Notes under the pieces: model-generated | What the model was told of the DNA's origin: nothing | The model's database searches: none | Seen by the model: the letters and a program-made list of their open reading frames with translations, nothing else | Shown: positions 280-19,446 of the stretch, piece after piece | Layout: each line of letters opens with the position of its first letter | How positions within the stretch are numbered: the stretch's first letter is position 1 | Position numbers and translations under genes: made by a program | Virus record (IMG/VR): IMGVR_UViG_3300009158_000214 | Coordinates: 1-22,837 of that record | Length of the DNA: 22,837 nucleotides | Strand: one strand, 5' to 3' | Source of the DNA: a virus

Positions 280-1029
280 TTAAGTTTCTGAATACATTAG
301 TGATAAATATTGTTCTTTAGAAAGATGATATTGAGTGGTGGTTTCTGTAGGTTTAGCTGAAGTTTTTATTTTAGCTACAATAATATCACCTTGTCTGTAT
401 ATCTTCTCTACATTCTCTTCTGGTACATCTATACGTACAGTCCAGGCAATTGCTCTGATAGCATCTGGTTTATTTCTTTCATCATCACGATTCCACCAAT
501 TGCTTCCTAATGCTGCTTCTCTTGGTACATACAACCAATATTCTCTATTAGTAGTAGTGCACCAGCATCTTACAGCATAAATAGGATTAGGTGGATTGCC
601 CCATCTGTCTTTCTCATACAGTTTAGTACCTTCTATTTCATATAACTCATACACGTCTTCAAATTCATGTGTGTATTCATTAAACTCATCATCCCATCTT
701 GTTCTTTTCTTTTTGATAGTTTGTTTATCAAGAAGAGTGGGCTCAAGACCTTTGAATAGTTTTTCTATACCAATAGCATCAAAGTATGTACGTCTTTCTT
801 CTGTATTAGCTACTTTAAGAGCTTCTTCTACAGTTACTGGTTTTATTTTAGCCCAGCATTCTTGTACAAACTGATCAAAATCATTAAGACTTTCGTGTGT
901 AATAACATCCTTTTGAAAATCTCTATAGTCATCAGCATACTTAGTCTTCCAAAGTTTGAGTGCTGTTGTTAAATCAAACCCACTTCTGTTATTAACAACA
1001 TAGGTTTGATCTGCATAGTTAATCTGCAT
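280..1029 (-). CDS. Conserved-type phage protein of unknown function, 249 aa
   Basis: Open reading frame of 249 codons starting MQINYADQTYVV. It has many Trp and Tyr residues, including a segment RCWCTTTNREYWLYVPREA around residues 153-171, and looks like a soluble alpha/beta protein. There is no signal peptide or membrane segment. Its start overlaps the end of the gene at 1019-1765 by 11 bases, which points to coupled translation in the region 1 operon. I do not recognise a catalytic motif. Confidence 0.85.
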   Translation of the reverse strand: MQINYADQTYVVNNRSGFDLTTALKLWKTKYADDYRDFQKDVITHESLNDFDQFVQECWAKIKPVTVEEALKVANTEERRTYFDAIGIEKLFKGLEPTLLDKQTIKKKRTRWDDEFNEYTHEFEDVYELYEIEGTKLYEKDRWGNPPNPIYAVRCWCTTTNREYWLYVPREAALGSNWWNRDDERNKPDAIRAIAWTVRIDVPEENVEKIYRQGDIIVAKIKTSAKPTETTTQYHLSKEQYLSLMYSET

Positions 1030-1765
1030 TTTTTGTTTGATTTAATTTTTCATCAATGTTGTTAATAATGTCATCTGTTAGTTTTAATACAACATTTCTT
1101 TCATTAGTATCTATTGTATTAACTTCCACCTTGTCTATTTTAAAAACTAACATATCATCTTCTTCAATACTATCTTTTCTTTCTAAAATCCAGCTGTCAT
1201 TGCAACCTCTAAATTCACAACTATCTGTTGATTCATAATTACTAAAAAGTGCATCAAAATCTTCTTCTAAAACCTCCTCTAAGTTACTACAAAAATCTGA
1301 ATGTTCCTGAGTTAAGAAGCCATTTTTTACAATAAATTGAATAGACATATTTGGTGTTTCCTCATAGTTGCCTTCACATTCTACATGAAGTGTATCAAAC
1401 CATAATTTCTTAGGAACGTTAATTATAATAGTAGTATCTAATACATCATTTCCATCTTCACCATAATAATCTGTACCTTCAAATTTTCTTGTTGGAACAT
1501 CATATATAGCTGTACCATTAGCAGTAAATTCTCCTGCCCAAGATCCATAGTCTAATTCATTATACATATAATCTAGAATAGCTTCTGTATATTCATTATC
1601 AACATTATCTCCATCTATTTGAAAATAAGCCCAGCCAGAGTCTCCTCCACCTTCCCACCCTATAGATAGTTCTTTACCTTCTTTATCAAGTTCTTCAATC
1701 CATTTTAAAATTGATTTTTTTATAACAGGTTCTTTTAGTTTTGCTGCTTTTTTACTTAAGCTCAT
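1019..1765 (-). CDS. Acidic protein of unknown function, 248 aa
   Basis: A 248-residue acidic protein. After a Lys-rich N-terminus it contains GWEGGGDSGWAYF at about residues 37-49, then YGSWAGEF and GTAIYD. The GGGDSG-type stretch resembles a motif seen in small uncharacterised phage and bacterial families (DUF6878-like). That resemblance is from memory and weak. The C-terminal third is very rich in Asp and Glu. It overlaps the downstream gene by 11 bases and lies 3 bases after the upstream DUF6915-like gene. No function is assigned. Confidence 0.85.
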   Translation of the reverse strand: MSLSKKAAKLKEPVIKKSILKWIEELDKEGKELSIGWEGGGDSGWAYFQIDGDNVDNEYTEAILDYMYNELDYGSWAGEFTANGTAIYDVPTRKFEGTDYYGEDGNDVLDTTIIINVPKKLWFDTLHVECEGNYEETPNMSIQFIVKNGFLTQEHSDFCSNLEEVLEEDFDALFSNYESTDSCEFRGCNDSWILERKDSIEEDDMLVFKIDKVEVNTIDTNERNVVLKLTDDIINNIDEKLNQTKNAD

Positions 1766-8035: not shown

Positions 8036-8620
8036 CTATTCTATTGGTTTCTGGTGAGATTTACCAACTCTAATACAATCTAAGTTTCTAGTAAGTATAT
8101 CTACACCTTTTAATGCTGCTAAGTATTTCTTGACAGCTTCTACTGTTACATTGTTACCACCTTCACATAATGAAATAGTACTTCTACTAAGTCCAGCTTT
8201 TTCAGCTAGTTCATCCTGTGTAAGTTGTCTAGATATTCTTTCAGTTTTTAGTATGTTCCCTAAGTCAAGAATTACTTTTACTAAAGAATTAAACTTATCA
8301 TCATCATCCTGAGTTCTTATTCTATTAATAACATCAGGTAACAATAAAACATTAAAAAGTTCTGGATTTAGTTCATAGTGATAATCTATCCAATACTTTT
8401 CTCTTGCTGCTAGTTCTTCCAATAAAATGTCTTTCTCTATAACATCTATATGGGGAACTAACCCAAGCTGTTCTAACTGCTTAACCCATTCATTAACAGT
8501 TTCATTATGAGATTTTGTTAAGTGTTTAAGAGGTCTTTCATAACCTACTGTAGTCTTACCAATGTAATAGTATACATCATTTCTGGGGTCTCTGAGACCA
8601 TATATTAAGTTTGTCTTCAT
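8036..8620 (-). CDS. GIY-YIG nuclease-like domain fused to Xre-type HTH
   Basis: A 194-residue two-domain protein. Residues 4-95 resemble a GIY-YIG domain: I6-Y7-G8, then Y19-I20-G21-K22, R29 with PLKHL, and AAREKYWI with E74 as the likely metal-binding Glu. Residues 118-172 form an Xre/Cro helix-turn-helix (LKTERISRQLTQDELAEKAG, then LSRSTISLCEGG). The HTH would bind DNA as a dimer. The GIY-YIG part could cut DNA or serve only for binding if degenerate. Two near-palindromic sites upstream share CATAATACAATAT, one over the start codon, suggesting self-repression. Nuclease-repressor fusions of this kind resemble self-regulating homing or defence nucleases. Confidence 0.82.
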   Translation of the reverse strand: MKTNLIYGLRDPRNDVYYYIGKTTVGYERPLKHLTKSHNETVNEWVKQLEQLGLVPHIDVIEKDILLEELAAREKYWIDYHYELNPELFNVLLLPDVINRIRTQDDDDKFNSLVKVILDLGNILKTERISRQLTQDELAEKAGLSRSTISLCEGGNNVTVEAVKKYLAALKGVDILTRNLDCIRVGKSHQKPIE

Positions 8621-9217: not shown

Positions 9218-9267
9218 GTTTCAATCCGTACCCTAGAAAACTCTTGTTTCCCTGATCCTAAGATCTG

Positions 9268-9748
9268 TGGAGGTGGAGGGAGTCGAACCCTCGTCCAACA
9301 TTACTCCAAAAATACCGTTCTTACATGCTTTAGTCAAGGTATGAGCTGACAACTCATGTACTAAAGTCAGTGTTTAAGCTGACATTTGCACCGTAGTAGG
9401 GCCAACTCGAAGGTTAGATTCCACCACCTGGCTTCTAATGTTTTTAACGTCCTAATAATCCAGGGAATTTGGGACTGTGCTTTCTTTTTACATCATATAG
9501 TCTTGGATGGTCAGTGTCACAGGAAGACCCTATGTCTTTACAGGTTGCTGTTCTGTTGCAAGGCTATCAGCTGCCCCGGTTGACTAGGCTGCAATAGCTT
9601 CGTCAGCTCCAATGAATGCAAGCATGTCATCGAAGGTCCAAGTAGATAATTCTACGTTGTCGTTTGTTTGTTAACCAATTTGTTTGAGTATTGGCTACCT
9701 CTTGCATGTGATACTTACTTCATAGTGCTGTCAAAACCAGGCACCCCC
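9268..9748 (-). ncRNA. ssrA: Phage-encoded tmRNA (transfer-messenger RNA)
   Basis: The 5' end GGGGGTGCCTGGTTTTGACAG (9728-9748, minus strand) and the 3' end form the tRNA-like domain. GGGGGTG pairs with CACCTCC (9269-9275), discriminator A is at 9268, and a perfect T arm GAGGG-TTCGACT-CCCTC is at 9276-9292. Conserved tmRNA sequences are visible: CATGCAAGAGG near the 5' end and CTAAAGCATGTAAGAA near 9310-9330. CCA is not encoded (CAG follows). The resume codon is probably ACA at 9665-9667, aligned with the GCAAACGAC start of the E. coli tag. The tag frame begins TNDNVELS, ends GADEAIAA and stops at TAG (9584-9586). At 481 bases with a tag of about 27 residues it is longer than usual. It would free stalled ribosomes and tag their products for proteolysis. 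Confidence 0.93.
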
Positions 9749-15722: not shown

Positions 15723-16049
15723 TTAGAACCTTACAGTATCCACACGTACAACATCCCTATCGTCCCCTACTATCTTACACCATATGCTGCCGTTAATAGT
15801 AAAACTATCTAAGGAAGTCCATTTAATAAAACAATCTCCCTTCACTAACATTTCTATAGGGAAGAGAGTAACAATAAAGCCTTCCTTGGTATCAGAAGTA
15901 AATACTGCATCATCTTCAAAGGATGATAGCTTATCTGCCAATTTAAGCAATCTCTGATTGTCTGGCATATAGGGATTAGTGTAGAAGTGTTCTACTTTCT
16001 CAAGAGGATTAACTGTAGTCTTAGTCTGAAAATTGAAAAATGTATTCAT
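15723..16049 (-). CDS. Unknown protein, 108 aa
   Basis: A 108-residue protein starting MNTFFNFQTKTTVNPLEKVE. The second half is beta-rich (EGFIVTLFPIEMLVKGDCFI, then SFTINGSIWCKIVGDD), as in small OB or SH3-like folds. No family recognised. It is transcribed as a single-gene unit with its own terminator (15650-15704), and an RNA-rich region with the parS site lies upstream. Confidence 0.75.
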   Translation of the reverse strand: MNTFFNFQTKTTVNPLEKVEHFYTNPYMPDNQRLLKLADKLSSFEDDAVFTSDTKEGFIVTLFPIEMLVKGDCFIKWTSLDSFTINGSIWCKIVGDDRDVVRVDTVRF

Positions 16050-16249
16050 TTCGAATTTGTTTAGGGAAATTAATGTTGTTTAGGAATTAAGAAGTCTAAT
16101 CAGTGTTCTATATATGTTATAGCTATTTAATCCGTATGTCACCCCATAGAATTGTCAATAGCTGAATTGATGAAAGAACAGGCTGTGTGTTGCCTGGTTT
16201 TCACACACTCACATGTAAATCAATTAGTTACACACGTTTACTAAATAAA

Positions 16250-16310
16250 AAGAAGAACCAAACGTCTCAGTCTATCCAGGATCTTCACAAAGTTCTGTCT
16301 GGTTCTTCTT
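16250..16310 (-). terminator. 10-bp perfect stem with T tail, next to parS
   Basis: AAGAAGAACC (16250-16259) pairs perfectly with GGTTCTTCTT (16301-16310). On the minus strand it is followed by TTTATTTAG. The loop is 41 bases, so it is either a terminator of an RNA that starts further upstream, or the closing stem of a small RNA. It ends two bases before the parS site. Confidence 0.5.
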
Positions 16311-16311
16311 A

Positions 16312-16327
16312 TGTTTCACGTGGAACA
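16312..16327. promoter_or_regulatory. parS: Perfect bacterial parS site, TGTTTCACGTGGAACA
   Basis: The 16 bases read TGTTCCACGTGAAACA on the minus strand, which is the B. subtilis-type chromosomal parS sequence used by ParB across most bacteria, including Bacteroidota. It lies in non-coding DNA between genes 15723-16049 and 16447-16971. A perfect match in a window of this size is very unlikely by chance (16 fixed bases against about 46,000 positions on two strands). Either host ParB or the phage ParB-domain protein could bind it. Confidence 0.75.
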
Positions 16328-16402
16328 CTAGTCACTACACACTGCACACGATATTATAAAGTATGTCCGTAAGTTCGTAAACCGTGAGTTGTGAAAATAG
16401 AA

Positions 16403-16430
16403 AGAACCTACCACTAATGTGATAGGTTCT
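16403..16430 (-). terminator. Intrinsic terminator after gene 16447-16971
   Basis: On the minus strand AGAACCTA pairs with TAGGTTCT (16423-16430 with 16403-16410) around a 12-base loop, followed by TTCTATTTTC. It lies 17 bases past the stop codon. Confidence 0.75.
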
Positions 16431-16446
16431 AATTACTCTCTAACTA

Positions 16447-16971
16447 TTAGAAAGGATTTTCGTTCGTTTCTAATTCTGCCATTGCAGGTGAGGACATTAA
16501 CAATTGAATTCTTTCCCGTGATTTACGAGCTTGTTCAAGCTTACGTTCCTTTTCTTTCTCAACTTGATATTTAGCCTGTGAAGAAGAGGCTAAATCTTTA
16601 GTTTCTGCAATGTACAAATCTGCCTTAAGAAGTGTGCTGTTTGCTTTGTTAAGCATAAGCATACTTGAAGGCTTTCCTGTACGAGGATTGATAAGAGTGC
16701 CGTTAACAATTTGAGCCACTCTATCTTGTCCTGTGTGAAACACTTTGGTTACAATATCTGTATCGTCTTGAACGATAAGAGTACTGCCCAATAAACTGTC
16801 TAACAAGTTGAGGTTTACACCACGGCTTGTTAAAGCATTGTGTGAAACAGCAACTGAAATGCTATCTCTACTTTCAGTTTCACATTTGAAAGTAGAATAG
16901 TCTGTTGAACCAAAAGTTTGGTTAAAATTGTCAACAGAAATGATTTTTAGAAGAGCTTGTGTAGAAGCCAT
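16447..16971 (-). CDS. Unknown protein, 174 aa, with charged C-terminal helix
   Basis: A 174-residue protein. Residues 1-120 look beta-rich and globular (STDYSTFKCETESRDSISVA, then GSTLIVQDDTDIVTKVFHTG). Residues 130-160 form a charged helix (QVEKEKERKLEQARKSRERI). This layout of a folded core with a Lys/Glu helix tail would suit a nucleic-acid-binding or scaffold protein, but no family is recognised. It is a single-gene unit with the array promoter box (17000-17022), the hairpin element (17071-17107) and its own terminator. Confidence 0.85.
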   Translation of the reverse strand: MASTQALLKIISVDNFNQTFGSTDYSTFKCETESRDSISVAVSHNALTSRGVNLNLLDSLLGSTLIVQDDTDIVTKVFHTGQDRVAQIVNGTLINPRTGKPSSMLMLNKANSTLLKADLYIAETKDLASSSQAKYQVEKEKERKLEQARKSRERIQLLMSSPAMAELETNENPF

Positions 16972-17867: not shown

Positions 17868-18005
17868 CTAATAGCCTAATTCTTCAAGGAGCTTGGCTTC
17901 ACAGCTTATGATTATACAGTCCTTGTTAACTGTGAATTCATAGAAGAAATTAGCTATCTCTTTGAAGAGATAGAATTCGTGAAATGAAAGAGTAATCTTT
18001 TTCAT
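17868..18005 (-). CDS. Small protein, 45 aa, unknown function
   Basis: A 45-codon frame starting MKKITLSFHEFYLFKEIANF and ending EAKLLEELGY. It sits between an array promoter box (18036-18060) and a strong terminator (17820-17859) with the same spacing as its larger neighbours, which is the main reason to call it. It is predicted to be helical, with no signal peptide or motif. An IIIS strand and one Cys pair (C30, C35) are visible. Confidence 0.7.
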   Translation of the reverse strand: MKKITLSFHEFYLFKEIANFFYEFTVNKDCIIISCEAKLLEELGY

Positions 18006-18035
18006 CTTTAATGTTGTTTGAGGTTAAGAAAAAAA

Positions 18036-18060
18036 CATATCAATTTAATAAAGGAAAAAA
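18036..18060 (-). promoter_or_regulatory. Array promoter-like box 3, joined to a terminator
   Basis: TTTCCTTTA (18049-18057, minus) then TTAAATTGATATG. The T tract directly in front is the tail of the terminator at 18051-18088, so the end of one unit and the promoter of the next share bases. Confidence 0.68.
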
Positions 18061-18088
18061 TAAAGCCCTATTGTTAGTAGGGCTTTAT
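18051..18088 (-). terminator. Terminator whose T tract starts the next promoter
   Basis: AAAGCCCTA pairs with TAGGGCTTT (18078-18086 with 18062-18070), followed by ATTTTTTCC. It stops gene 18092-18445 and merges with box 3. Confidence 0.85.
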
Positions 18089-18091
18089 TAA

Positions 18092-18445
18092 TTAAAAATC
18101 TAAATCTTGTTCCATAAGATATCTATCCATTTCAACAAGATATTTTTCAGGGTGAGCCCACTGGAATTTAGATTTAATCTTATCAATGGCAAGCTGTTCT
18201 AAAAAGATAGCTAACTCTTTTTGCATTCTACTATGGTCTGAATAATCCGTAGTAAGATATGTAAATTGAGTGGTCTCTTTGATAAGCTTATTCTTGCCAA
18301 ATGGCTTATCAGTTTGATAAATATTCATTCCTTCAATTTTAGGAAGGTTTGAATTTGGAATTCTGCTAACAGAAATGTTGCAGGTGAATACAATGGCTCC
18401 ATTCATTTGAATGGTTTTAAAGCCAAATAATTTAAAGCTTTGCAT
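18092..18445 (-). CDS. Unknown protein, 117 aa
   Basis: A 117-residue protein starting MQSFKLFGFKTIQMNGAIVF. The first part is beta-rich with basic residues, the last 40 residues form helices (KELAIFLEQLAIDKIKSKFQ). No family recognised. Its leader CTTAACCAATAAATTATTTATT is almost identical to that of gene 19101-19355, showing that the units share leader as well as promoter. Box 4 (18474-18496) and hairpin element 3 (18511-18550) precede it. Confidence 0.82.
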   Translation of the reverse strand: MQSFKLFGFKTIQMNGAIVFTCNISVSRIPNSNLPKIEGMNIYQTDKPFGKNKLIKETTQFTYLTTDYSDHSRMQKELAIFLEQLAIDKIKSKFQWAHPEKYLVEMDRYLMEQDLDF

Positions 18446-18473
18446 AATAAATAATTTATTGGTTAAGAAAAAT

Positions 18474-18496
18474 TATATCAAATTGATAAAGGAAAA
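18474..18496 (-). promoter_or_regulatory. Array promoter-like box 4
   Basis: TTTCCTTTA (18487-18495) then TCAATTTGATATAAT on the minus strand, 42 bases upstream of the ATG at 18445. It fits the shared pattern TTTCCTTTA-N5-TTGATAT exactly. Confidence 0.7.
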
Positions 18497-18510
18497 ATGA
18501 TTGCATAATC

Positions 18511-18550
18511 CTAAATTGTCAAGGGTGTTCTGACGAAGTCAGTATGAAAG
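18511..18550 (-). promoter_or_regulatory. Hairpin element 3 with ACACCCTTG box
   Basis: CTGAC-GAA-GTCAG at 18530-18542, with GGTGT on the left and TATGAAAG on the right. The minus strand continues ACACCCTTGACAATTTAG, the third copy of the element. Confidence 0.6.
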
Positions 18551-18588
18551 ATAGTAATAGAGGTCTTTCGACCTCCTTTGATACTACT
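18549..18588 (-). terminator. GAAA-capped hairpin after the lipoprotein gene
   Basis: On the minus strand GGAGGTC-GAAA-GACCTC forms a GNRA-capped stem (18561-18575), extended by AGTA/TACT-type pairs outside. It is followed by TATTACTATC, not a T run, so it is either a weak terminator or a stabilising 3' hairpin for gene 18655-18792. Confidence 0.5.
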
Positions 18589-18654
18589 TAACCCTAAGTG
18601 TCTTTATCTTATTAGTTCTAAGTGTTTGCTAAGTTGACCAATGGTAAATAAGGT

Positions 18655-18792
18655 TCATTGAACCCTAGTCATGCACTTAGATCTGCCATGGCATCCATAT
18701 CCTGTAGTTGTACAAGATGATAGTGCTGCAATAATTAACCCTGTTAGGATTAATACAAAGAAGAACAGTCTGATTTTGTTTACGAATTTCAT
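18655..18792 (-). CDS. Small lipoprotein, 45 aa
   Basis: A 45-codon frame with a typical lipoprotein signal: basic start MKFVNKIRLF, hydrophobic core FFVLILTGLIIAAL, and lipobox LSSC with the lipidated Cys at residue 27. The mature peptide is only 19 residues (CTTTGYGCHGRSKCMTRVQ), with two more Cys at mature positions 8 and 14. It should be exported, lipidated and cleaved by signal peptidase II, then held in the inner or outer membrane. Phage lipoproteins of this kind often block superinfection (known for several phages; inferred here). Box 5 (18821-18844) lies upstream. Confidence 0.78.
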   Translation of the reverse strand: MKFVNKIRLFFFVLILTGLIIAALSSCTTTGYGCHGRSKCMTRVQ

Positions 18793-18820
18793 GTTAATTA
18801 ATTTAAGTTAAATAATAGTA

Positions 18821-18844
18821 TATATCAAGTTTATAAAGGAAAAA
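18821..18844 (-). promoter_or_regulatory. Array promoter-like box 5, joined to a terminator
   Basis: TTTCCTTTA (18834-18842) then TAAACTTGATATATAC on the minus strand. The preceding ATTTATTT is the tail of the terminator at 18841-18870. Confidence 0.7.
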
Positions 18845-18870
18845 TAAATAGCCCCATATTTCAGGGGCTA
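18841..18870 (-). terminator. Terminator fused to box 5
   Basis: TAGCCCC pairs with GGGGCTA (18864-18870 with 18849-18855) around TGAAATAT, followed by TTTATTTTTCC. It ends the 54-aa membrane-protein unit. Confidence 0.8.
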
Positions 18871-18875
18871 ATAAG

Positions 18876-19040
18876 TTAACAATGTTTATCTATAAACTCT
18901 CCAAACTTCAGTCTGTTATTGAGAAATTTAAAACCAAGTTTAAAGTGTCTCTTATTAAATCCCCATAAATAGCATACAGCTCCTATGATGAATGATAGTC
19001 CAATAAATAAGAAGAATGGAATGTAGATTAAGTACTTCAT
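18876..19040 (-). CDS. Small membrane protein, 54 aa
   Basis: A 54-codon frame starting MKYLIYIPFFLFIGLSFIIG, with one hydrophobic segment (residues 3-26), then basic residues (NKRHFKLGFKFLNNRLKFGE). It is predicted to be a single-pass inner-membrane protein with a cytoplasmic basic tail. Box 6 (19066-19090) and its own terminator (18841-18870) frame it, as for other units of the array. Confidence 0.78.
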   Translation of the reverse strand: MKYLIYIPFFLFIGLSFIIGAVCYLWGFNKRHFKLGFKFLNNRLKFGEFIDKHC

Positions 19041-19065
19041 GTTAATAGATTTTAGGTTAATAGAT

Positions 19066-19090
19066 ATATATCAAGATAATAAAGGAAAAA
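19066..19090 (-). promoter_or_regulatory. Array promoter-like box 6
   Basis: TTTCCTTTA (19080-19088) then TTATCTTGATATATATC on the minus strand, following TTTTCTTT from the end of gene unit 19101-19355. A short AGGG/CCCT hairpin (about 19095-19112) overlapping that gene's last codons may serve as its terminator. Confidence 0.7.
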
Positions 19091-19100
19091 GAAAATCCCC

Positions 19101-19355
19101 CTAAAAAGGGAGATCTTCTAAATCTAATTTCTGCATCTTTTCTTTGAGTCTAGATCTCTCTTCTAATTTGAAAGCACATTCTAGTTCTCTTTCGAAGATA
19201 AGTCTCTGCATTAATGGACTTACTTCTTCTTCAGAACGAGAGTTGATTTCATACTCCATTGCTTGACAATAACTGCAGGTATGACCTGGTTCCCATTGGT
19301 TTTCCCAATCTAAGAATACTGGTTGAGTGCATGAACATTGATTGCTTTCTGACAT
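19101..19355 (-). CDS. Zinc-binding type small protein, 84 aa
   Basis: An 84-residue protein with CSCTQ at residues 8-12 and HTCSYCQ at about 25-31, a Cys/His cluster that may hold one zinc ion. The rest is charged and helical (FERELECAFKLEERSRLKEK). Small Cys-cluster proteins of this kind usually bind partners or nucleic acid. The gene has box 7 upstream and a leader matching that of gene 18092-18445. Confidence 0.78.
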   Translation of the reverse strand: MSESNQCSCTQPVFLDWENQWEPGHTCSYCQAMEYEINSRSEEEVSPLMQRLIFERELECAFKLEERSRLKEKMQKLDLEDLPF

Positions 19356-19381
19356 AATAAATAATTTATTGGTTAAGAATA

Positions 19382-19406
19382 ATATATCAAGATAGTAAAG
19401 GAAAAA
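19382..19406 (-). promoter_or_regulatory. Array promoter-like box 7, joined to a terminator
   Basis: TTTCCTTTA (19396-19404) then CTATCTTGATATATT on the minus strand. The T tract before it is the tail of the RNA terminator at 19402-19446. The ATG of gene 19101-19355 is 41 bases downstream. Confidence 0.7.
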
Positions 19407-19446
19407 ATAAAGCAGTTTATAGACCTACTTAGGTCTTGTGCCTGCT
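19402..19446 (-). terminator. Nested terminator of the three-way-junction RNA
   Basis: On the minus strand AGCAG pairs with CTGCT (19442-19446 with 19411-19415), enclosing the perfect hairpin AGACCTAAGTAGGTCT (19421-19436), followed by TTATTTTTTCC. The T tract merges with box 7. Confidence 0.72.

Follow-up and report, generated by a model that had tools for sequence, protein, structure and literature searches.

The viral record IMGVR_UViG_3300009158_000214 (hereafter the window, that is, the whole stretch of 22,837 base pairs (bp) analysed, classed in IMG/VR as a linear virus fragment) carries at 16312-16327, on the plus strand, an exact copy of the 16-mer TGTTTCACGTGGAACA, whose reverse complement, TGTTCCACGTGAAACA, is the classical form of parS, the loading site of the bacterial chromosome-segregation protein ParB. 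Counted over the 22,837 bp of the record only, the 16-mer is present in one copy, and it shows no mismatch to TGTTNCACGTGNAACA. The exact 16-mer is expected by chance 8e-6 times in the window on both strands, and TGTTNCACGTGNAACA 7e-5 times; coincidence is excluded as the origin of the site, and by its sequence the 16-mer is a genuine chromosomal-type parS. A preliminary description of this DNA had reported a perfect 16-base parS match on the reverse strand, not expected by chance and lying in a non-coding stretch, and all three statements are borne out, the stretch being a gap between two open reading frames (ORFs) of the minus strand (Table 1). The same sequence recurs unchanged in chromosomes and in other phages. 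Among Bacteroidota, the probable host phylum, the exact 16-mer is found in 50 of 198 genomes, against 0 of 198 for its reversed control, and the core GTTNCACGTGNAAC in 58 of 61, usually as two copies close together; 14 genomes selected by having the site contain one to four sites each. To judge by sequence, the window site is a true parS, of a kind that chromosomes of the probable host phylum also use.

Table 1. Features of the window around parS, with the ParB_N-like gene
Feature	Position	Strand	Remarks
Intergenic stretch holding parS, 397 bp	16050-16446		Minus-strand ORFs 15723-16049 and 16447-16971 on either side
Terminator-like hairpin, 14-bp stem followed by a T-rich tract	16247-16310	-	Inverted repeat; starts beside parS when read on the minus strand
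Intrinsic-terminator-like hairpin	16403-16430	-	Directly past the end of ORF 16447-16971
ParB_N-like protein P0001, 288 amino acids	10695-11561	-	Weak ParB_N match, under the Pfam cut-off

Within its intergenic stretch, parS lies 262 bp from the ORF on the left and 119 bp from that on the right, between the two minus-strand hairpins. Two intrinsic-terminator-like hairpins were found against 0.6 expected in shuffled sequence, and the RNA fold of 16240-16335 has a z of -1.3, an energy that is not significant. A 61-amino-acid ORF with a GTG start that covers parS on the plus strand looks spurious, because all adjacent genes run on the minus strand. The position between hairpins, with a promoter-like match upstream of parS at 16381-16353, brings up the alternative of a regulatory or insulating site, at which ParB or another protein would silence or insulate transcription or control a short transcript. 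We regard this as improbable: promoter-like matches are no commoner than in shuffles (5 versus 4.7), and most other phage parS sites lie within genes, at positions that are not conserved.

The proteins of the window have few annotated relatives. No near DNA relative was found in INPHARED, and a search of IMG/VR through ORF 16447-16971 recovered no relatives. Through the protein encoded at 1019-1765, two contigs of a single metagenome in IMG/VR were reached, which are identical to each other over 13 kb. The larger one (58.9 kb, hereafter G460) is syntenic with the window and shares 87% nucleotide identity with it over window positions 280-1723. G460 encodes a portal (phrog_6547) and a terminase (phrog_6681) of Crassvirales type, which are seen in G460 only, the window stopping short of these genes; at 24-25% identity, the G460 terminase matches those of crAss-like phages such as cr1_1 and cr55_1 and of Flavobacterium phages such as Fpv20. 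Shine-Dalgarno motifs are absent from the window genes, as is usual in Bacteroidota. Because of the terminase and portal kinship of G460 and the lack of Shine-Dalgarno motifs in the window, the window most likely belongs to a crAss-like phage of a Bacteroidota host, and the crAss-like assignment of the preliminary description is now reached through the terminase and portal of a syntenic relative. The exact 16-mer is present in G460 too, at a different place, inside a 94-amino-acid gene just upstream of the terminase and past the point that corresponds to the right end of the window; the window region at about 13.4-19.9 kb, parS included, is shrunk to about 1.6 kb in G460.

A further 80 loci (1.01 Mb) were collected by terminase alone. 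Of 50 of their records, nine carry exact TGTTNCACGTGNAACA (reversed control, 0 of 50), one of them, G461, sharing the G460 terminase and so not independent. In all 80 loci, the 14-mer parS core is present in 18 against 0.04 expected, and four control motifs gave no match. The sites occupy at least seven different contexts, the window included, and the terminase tree requires about 11 changes of parS presence (gains or losses), a figure that is only rough because absence in fragmentary records is uncertain. Together, the multiple contexts and the changes on the tree indicate that parS sites come and go among the relatives while their sequence stays perfect. The preliminary description had let its proposal depend on the site not being absent from all relatives; G460 and several others carry it. 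A neutral history, in which the 16-mer is a coincidence or a captured fragment of host-origin DNA, could draw on the patchiness of the sites and on the fact that large collections contain some coincidences, yet it appears quite improbable in view of the expectation given above for the window, the repeated independent gains in relatives and the control 16-mers, with zero to one match in the same collections.

Among these relatives we also observed the peptide V[SP]R[EG]T in the hypervariable linker of the gene after the portal (L255:1226-2497; homologues L257-L336), with 21 occurrences in 57 homologues. It is always written with GTT and CGT codons, though GTA and AGA are commonest. The peptide was considered as a conserved in-gene parS, but with its serine wobble base free it may have a protein-level cause. 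Matches to GTTCCTCGTGGAAC were discounted, being attributed to a conserved AFHEE motif at the protein level.

Outside this group, at least 120 IMG/VR stretches contain the 16-mer, where its reversed form occurs in 1 and an arm-scrambled version keeping CACGTG in 0. INPHARED contains 164 records with the 16-mer as a 17-18-mer, TGTTTCACGTGAAACA in 315 records and TGTTCCACGTGGAACA in 108, with the scrambled control in none. The carriers with names infect Listeria, Microbacterium, Pseudomonas, Arthrobacter, Gordonia, Bacillus and Mycobacterium or are microviruses. No Escherichia or Salmonella phages are among the INPHARED matches listed, in keeping with hosts that are not known to have chromosomal ParABS. 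Viral parS sites are intergenic in 33 of 127 cases versus 11 expected, a threefold excess, and the bases flanking them show the same A and T preference as at chromosomal sites. Collectively, parS shows strong enrichment and repeated gain in phages at large as well as in the window's phage group, without being coupled to a phage ParB; when 50 IMG/VR records were selected by the 16-mer, 45 gave no ParB_N match, two of these 45 having 12 and 24 sites. The excess in unrelated phages suggests that many viruses dock onto the host DNA-segregation machinery.

Several of these carriers are of interest in themselves. The 24 exact sites of IMGVR_UViG_3300037518_000322 (L045) lie mostly in one orientation with gaps of a few hundred bases, and the record with 12 exact sites is IMGVR_UViG_3300038443_000757 (L017). 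Exact palindromic parS occurs in single-stranded DNA (ssDNA) microviruses of 4-6 kb, namely PQ006097.1 (bajarodino virus 3), with apparently six sites (12 strand-wise places), and M17988.1 (Spiroplasma phage 4). In KJ409772.2 and related Pseudomonas phages, the direct terminal repeat close to the end of the genome contains an exact parS.

Might the phage read the site with a protein of its own? The preliminary description had pointed to a ParB-domain gene in the window as one possible reader, and a ParB_N-like match is indeed present in P0001 (Table 1), but it is weak and the motifs of ParB are lacking. Aligned with Bacteroidota chromosomal ParBs (L245, L249 and L250), P0001 has DGQHLYHA in place of GERRYRA, the GERRxRA motif that binds cytidine triphosphate (CTP), and it has neither the QPR motif nor a helix-turn-helix of the LTQEE...RSTIANYLRLL type. 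Among 50 relative records, a clear homologue turned up in a single record, which lacks the exact site; G460 and all those of the 50 that bear parS are without P0001. A direct search of IMG/VR found no relatives of P0001, tblastn against INPHARED gave no match, and its single-sequence fold, with a predicted local distance difference test (pLDDT) score of 43, was too poor for use. No member of the ParA family was found among the window ORFs searched; as to a ParABS cassette, the window contains neither a ParB with GERRxRA and a central helix-turn-helix nor an adjacent parA. With DGQH for GERR, no recognisable parS-type helix-turn-helix and no presence in the relative records that bear the exact site, P0001 was rejected as the likely reader, and we doubt that it is a CTP-clamp ParB acting at parS. 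A self-contained partition system in which P0001 reads the site, for which the ParB_N-like fold match in the same record would speak, is the least probable of the alternatives, all the more as other parS phage records so rarely contain a ParB_N gene.

Three further features of the window lie apart from parS. At 18005-19408, several small minus-strand genes are each preceded by a recurring element, TAAAGGAAAAA with TATATCAA as read on the plus strand; these may be repeated early promoters. The minus-strand gene at 8036-8620 encodes a protein that has an HTH_3 domain at its C-terminus and weakly matches GIY-YIG nucleases at its N-terminus. A full-length match to transfer-messenger RNA (tmRNA; RF00023, 83.6 bits) covers 9265-9748 on the minus strand, where ARAGORN reports none; its candidate tag, ...NDNVELSTWTFDDMLAFIGADEAIAA, is unusually long, and G460 has a tmRNA match as well (L252:3934-4423, 61.2 bits).

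We favour, with a little more than even confidence, the reading that the window parS acts as a host chromosomal ParB loading site and most likely aids the positioning or inheritance of phage DNA. Clamping of CTP-bound ParB at parS, followed by spreading, is established ParB behaviour. In the infected cell, ParB-CTP of the host would close as a clamp on the phage DNA at parS and then spread, the ParB-loaded genome would become tied to the host ParA and SMC machinery, and phage DNA would be positioned and inherited with the nucleoid during a slow infection or a carrier state. Binding of ParB to the site during infection is what we infer, and host ParB, already named in the preliminary description, appears to be the likely reader. 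The most uncertain step is the benefit, which may be positioning or inheritance rather than a decoy or regulatory effect; we consider the former likeliest because the probable host is not known to form spores.

The main rival is a decoy, in which a replicating phage would multiply parS and pull ParB, and SMC with it, off the host origin with no partition benefit, so that host segregation is disturbed or host resources are freed. At phage copy number even one site would amount to many, some phages have 12 or 24 copies, and the parS-like sites of the mobile island SGI1 make its helper plasmid less stable (PMC10954446). Because a decoy alone favours many copies, the one known copy in the window and the one or two in most parS-bearing IMG/VR records examined count against it, and we hold it doubtful, if less so than the other alternatives.

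Several observations weigh against the loading of host ParB for positioning or inheritance. A single site may recruit little ParB. The host assignment is by kinship and ribosome-binding-site style only. The distribution is patchy, most terminase-relative records, which are fragments, being without the site. The record counts given for phages at large include many close relatives and do not stand for independent lineages, and a motif at the protein level, V[SP]R[EG]T in the linker of the gene after the portal, may account for part of the in-gene parS signal. The variant TGTTCCACGTGGAACA is carried by phages of Klebsiella, including at least three jumbo phages, and Klebsiella is not known to have chromosomal ParABS. 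Finally, no parS is present in 11 isolate and gut genomes that belong to Crassvirales or are related to them; because of this it is a trait of some lineages, and an extension of the reading in the preliminary description to crAss-like phages generally is not supported.

For phages as a whole, it seems to us evenly balanced whether host-type parS is a general device, a perfect host centromere acquired and reacquired convergently anywhere in the genome so as to load host ParB. Such a device would span phages that infect many kinds of ParABS-bearing host, crAss-like phages of Bacteroidota and ssDNA microviruses among them, and its use would lie outside spore entry, in persistence, positioning or interference. 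For crAss-like phages, which persist without classical lysogeny, inheritance through the host chromosome-segregation machinery would, if they carry the site and load host ParB, offer a concrete mechanism.

Compared with known systems, the window site is identical in sequence to that of the chromosomal ParABS-parS of Bacteroidota; there, parS lies near the chromosome origin, whereas here it lies on a phage genome. The bacteriophage P1 is a phage-plasmid that encodes its own ParABS. Phage-plasmids or extrachromosomal prophages with their own ParABS are also described among mycobacteriophages (PMC7157519). In all of these, parS on phage DNA serves inheritance; they encode their own partition proteins, whereas neither the window nor the G460 record, both of them partial genomes, yielded a canonical ParB. 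SGI1 has plasmid-type parS sites that are bound by the ParB of an IncC plasmid and is stabilised through that ParB (PMC10954446). It resembles the case proposed here in that a mobile element gains stability from parS-like sites through the ParB of another replicon, and differs in that the hijacked ParABS is that of a plasmid and the element is an integrative mobilizable island rather than a phage. A parallel that is missing from the preliminary description is the Bacillus subtilis phage phi29, in which our re-scan found four exact copies of TGTTTCACGTGGAACA. According to the account in PMC9437464 of Meijer et al. (2005, EMBO J), Spo0J, the host ParB, traps the phi29 genome in spores, which, as far as that account goes, makes phi29 a precedent for host ParB acting on phage DNA. 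In the open library searched, we came upon no paper on host parS carried by phages other than phi29. Both phages have exact host-type parS on their DNA and host ParB as the presumed reader, yet phi29 is a small virulent phage of a spore-forming host, with several sites and spore entry as the benefit, whereas the window phage is crAss-like, with one known site and a probable Bacteroidota host. The enrichment of parS across phages of many hosts suggests that phi29 is one instance of a general phage-host interface.
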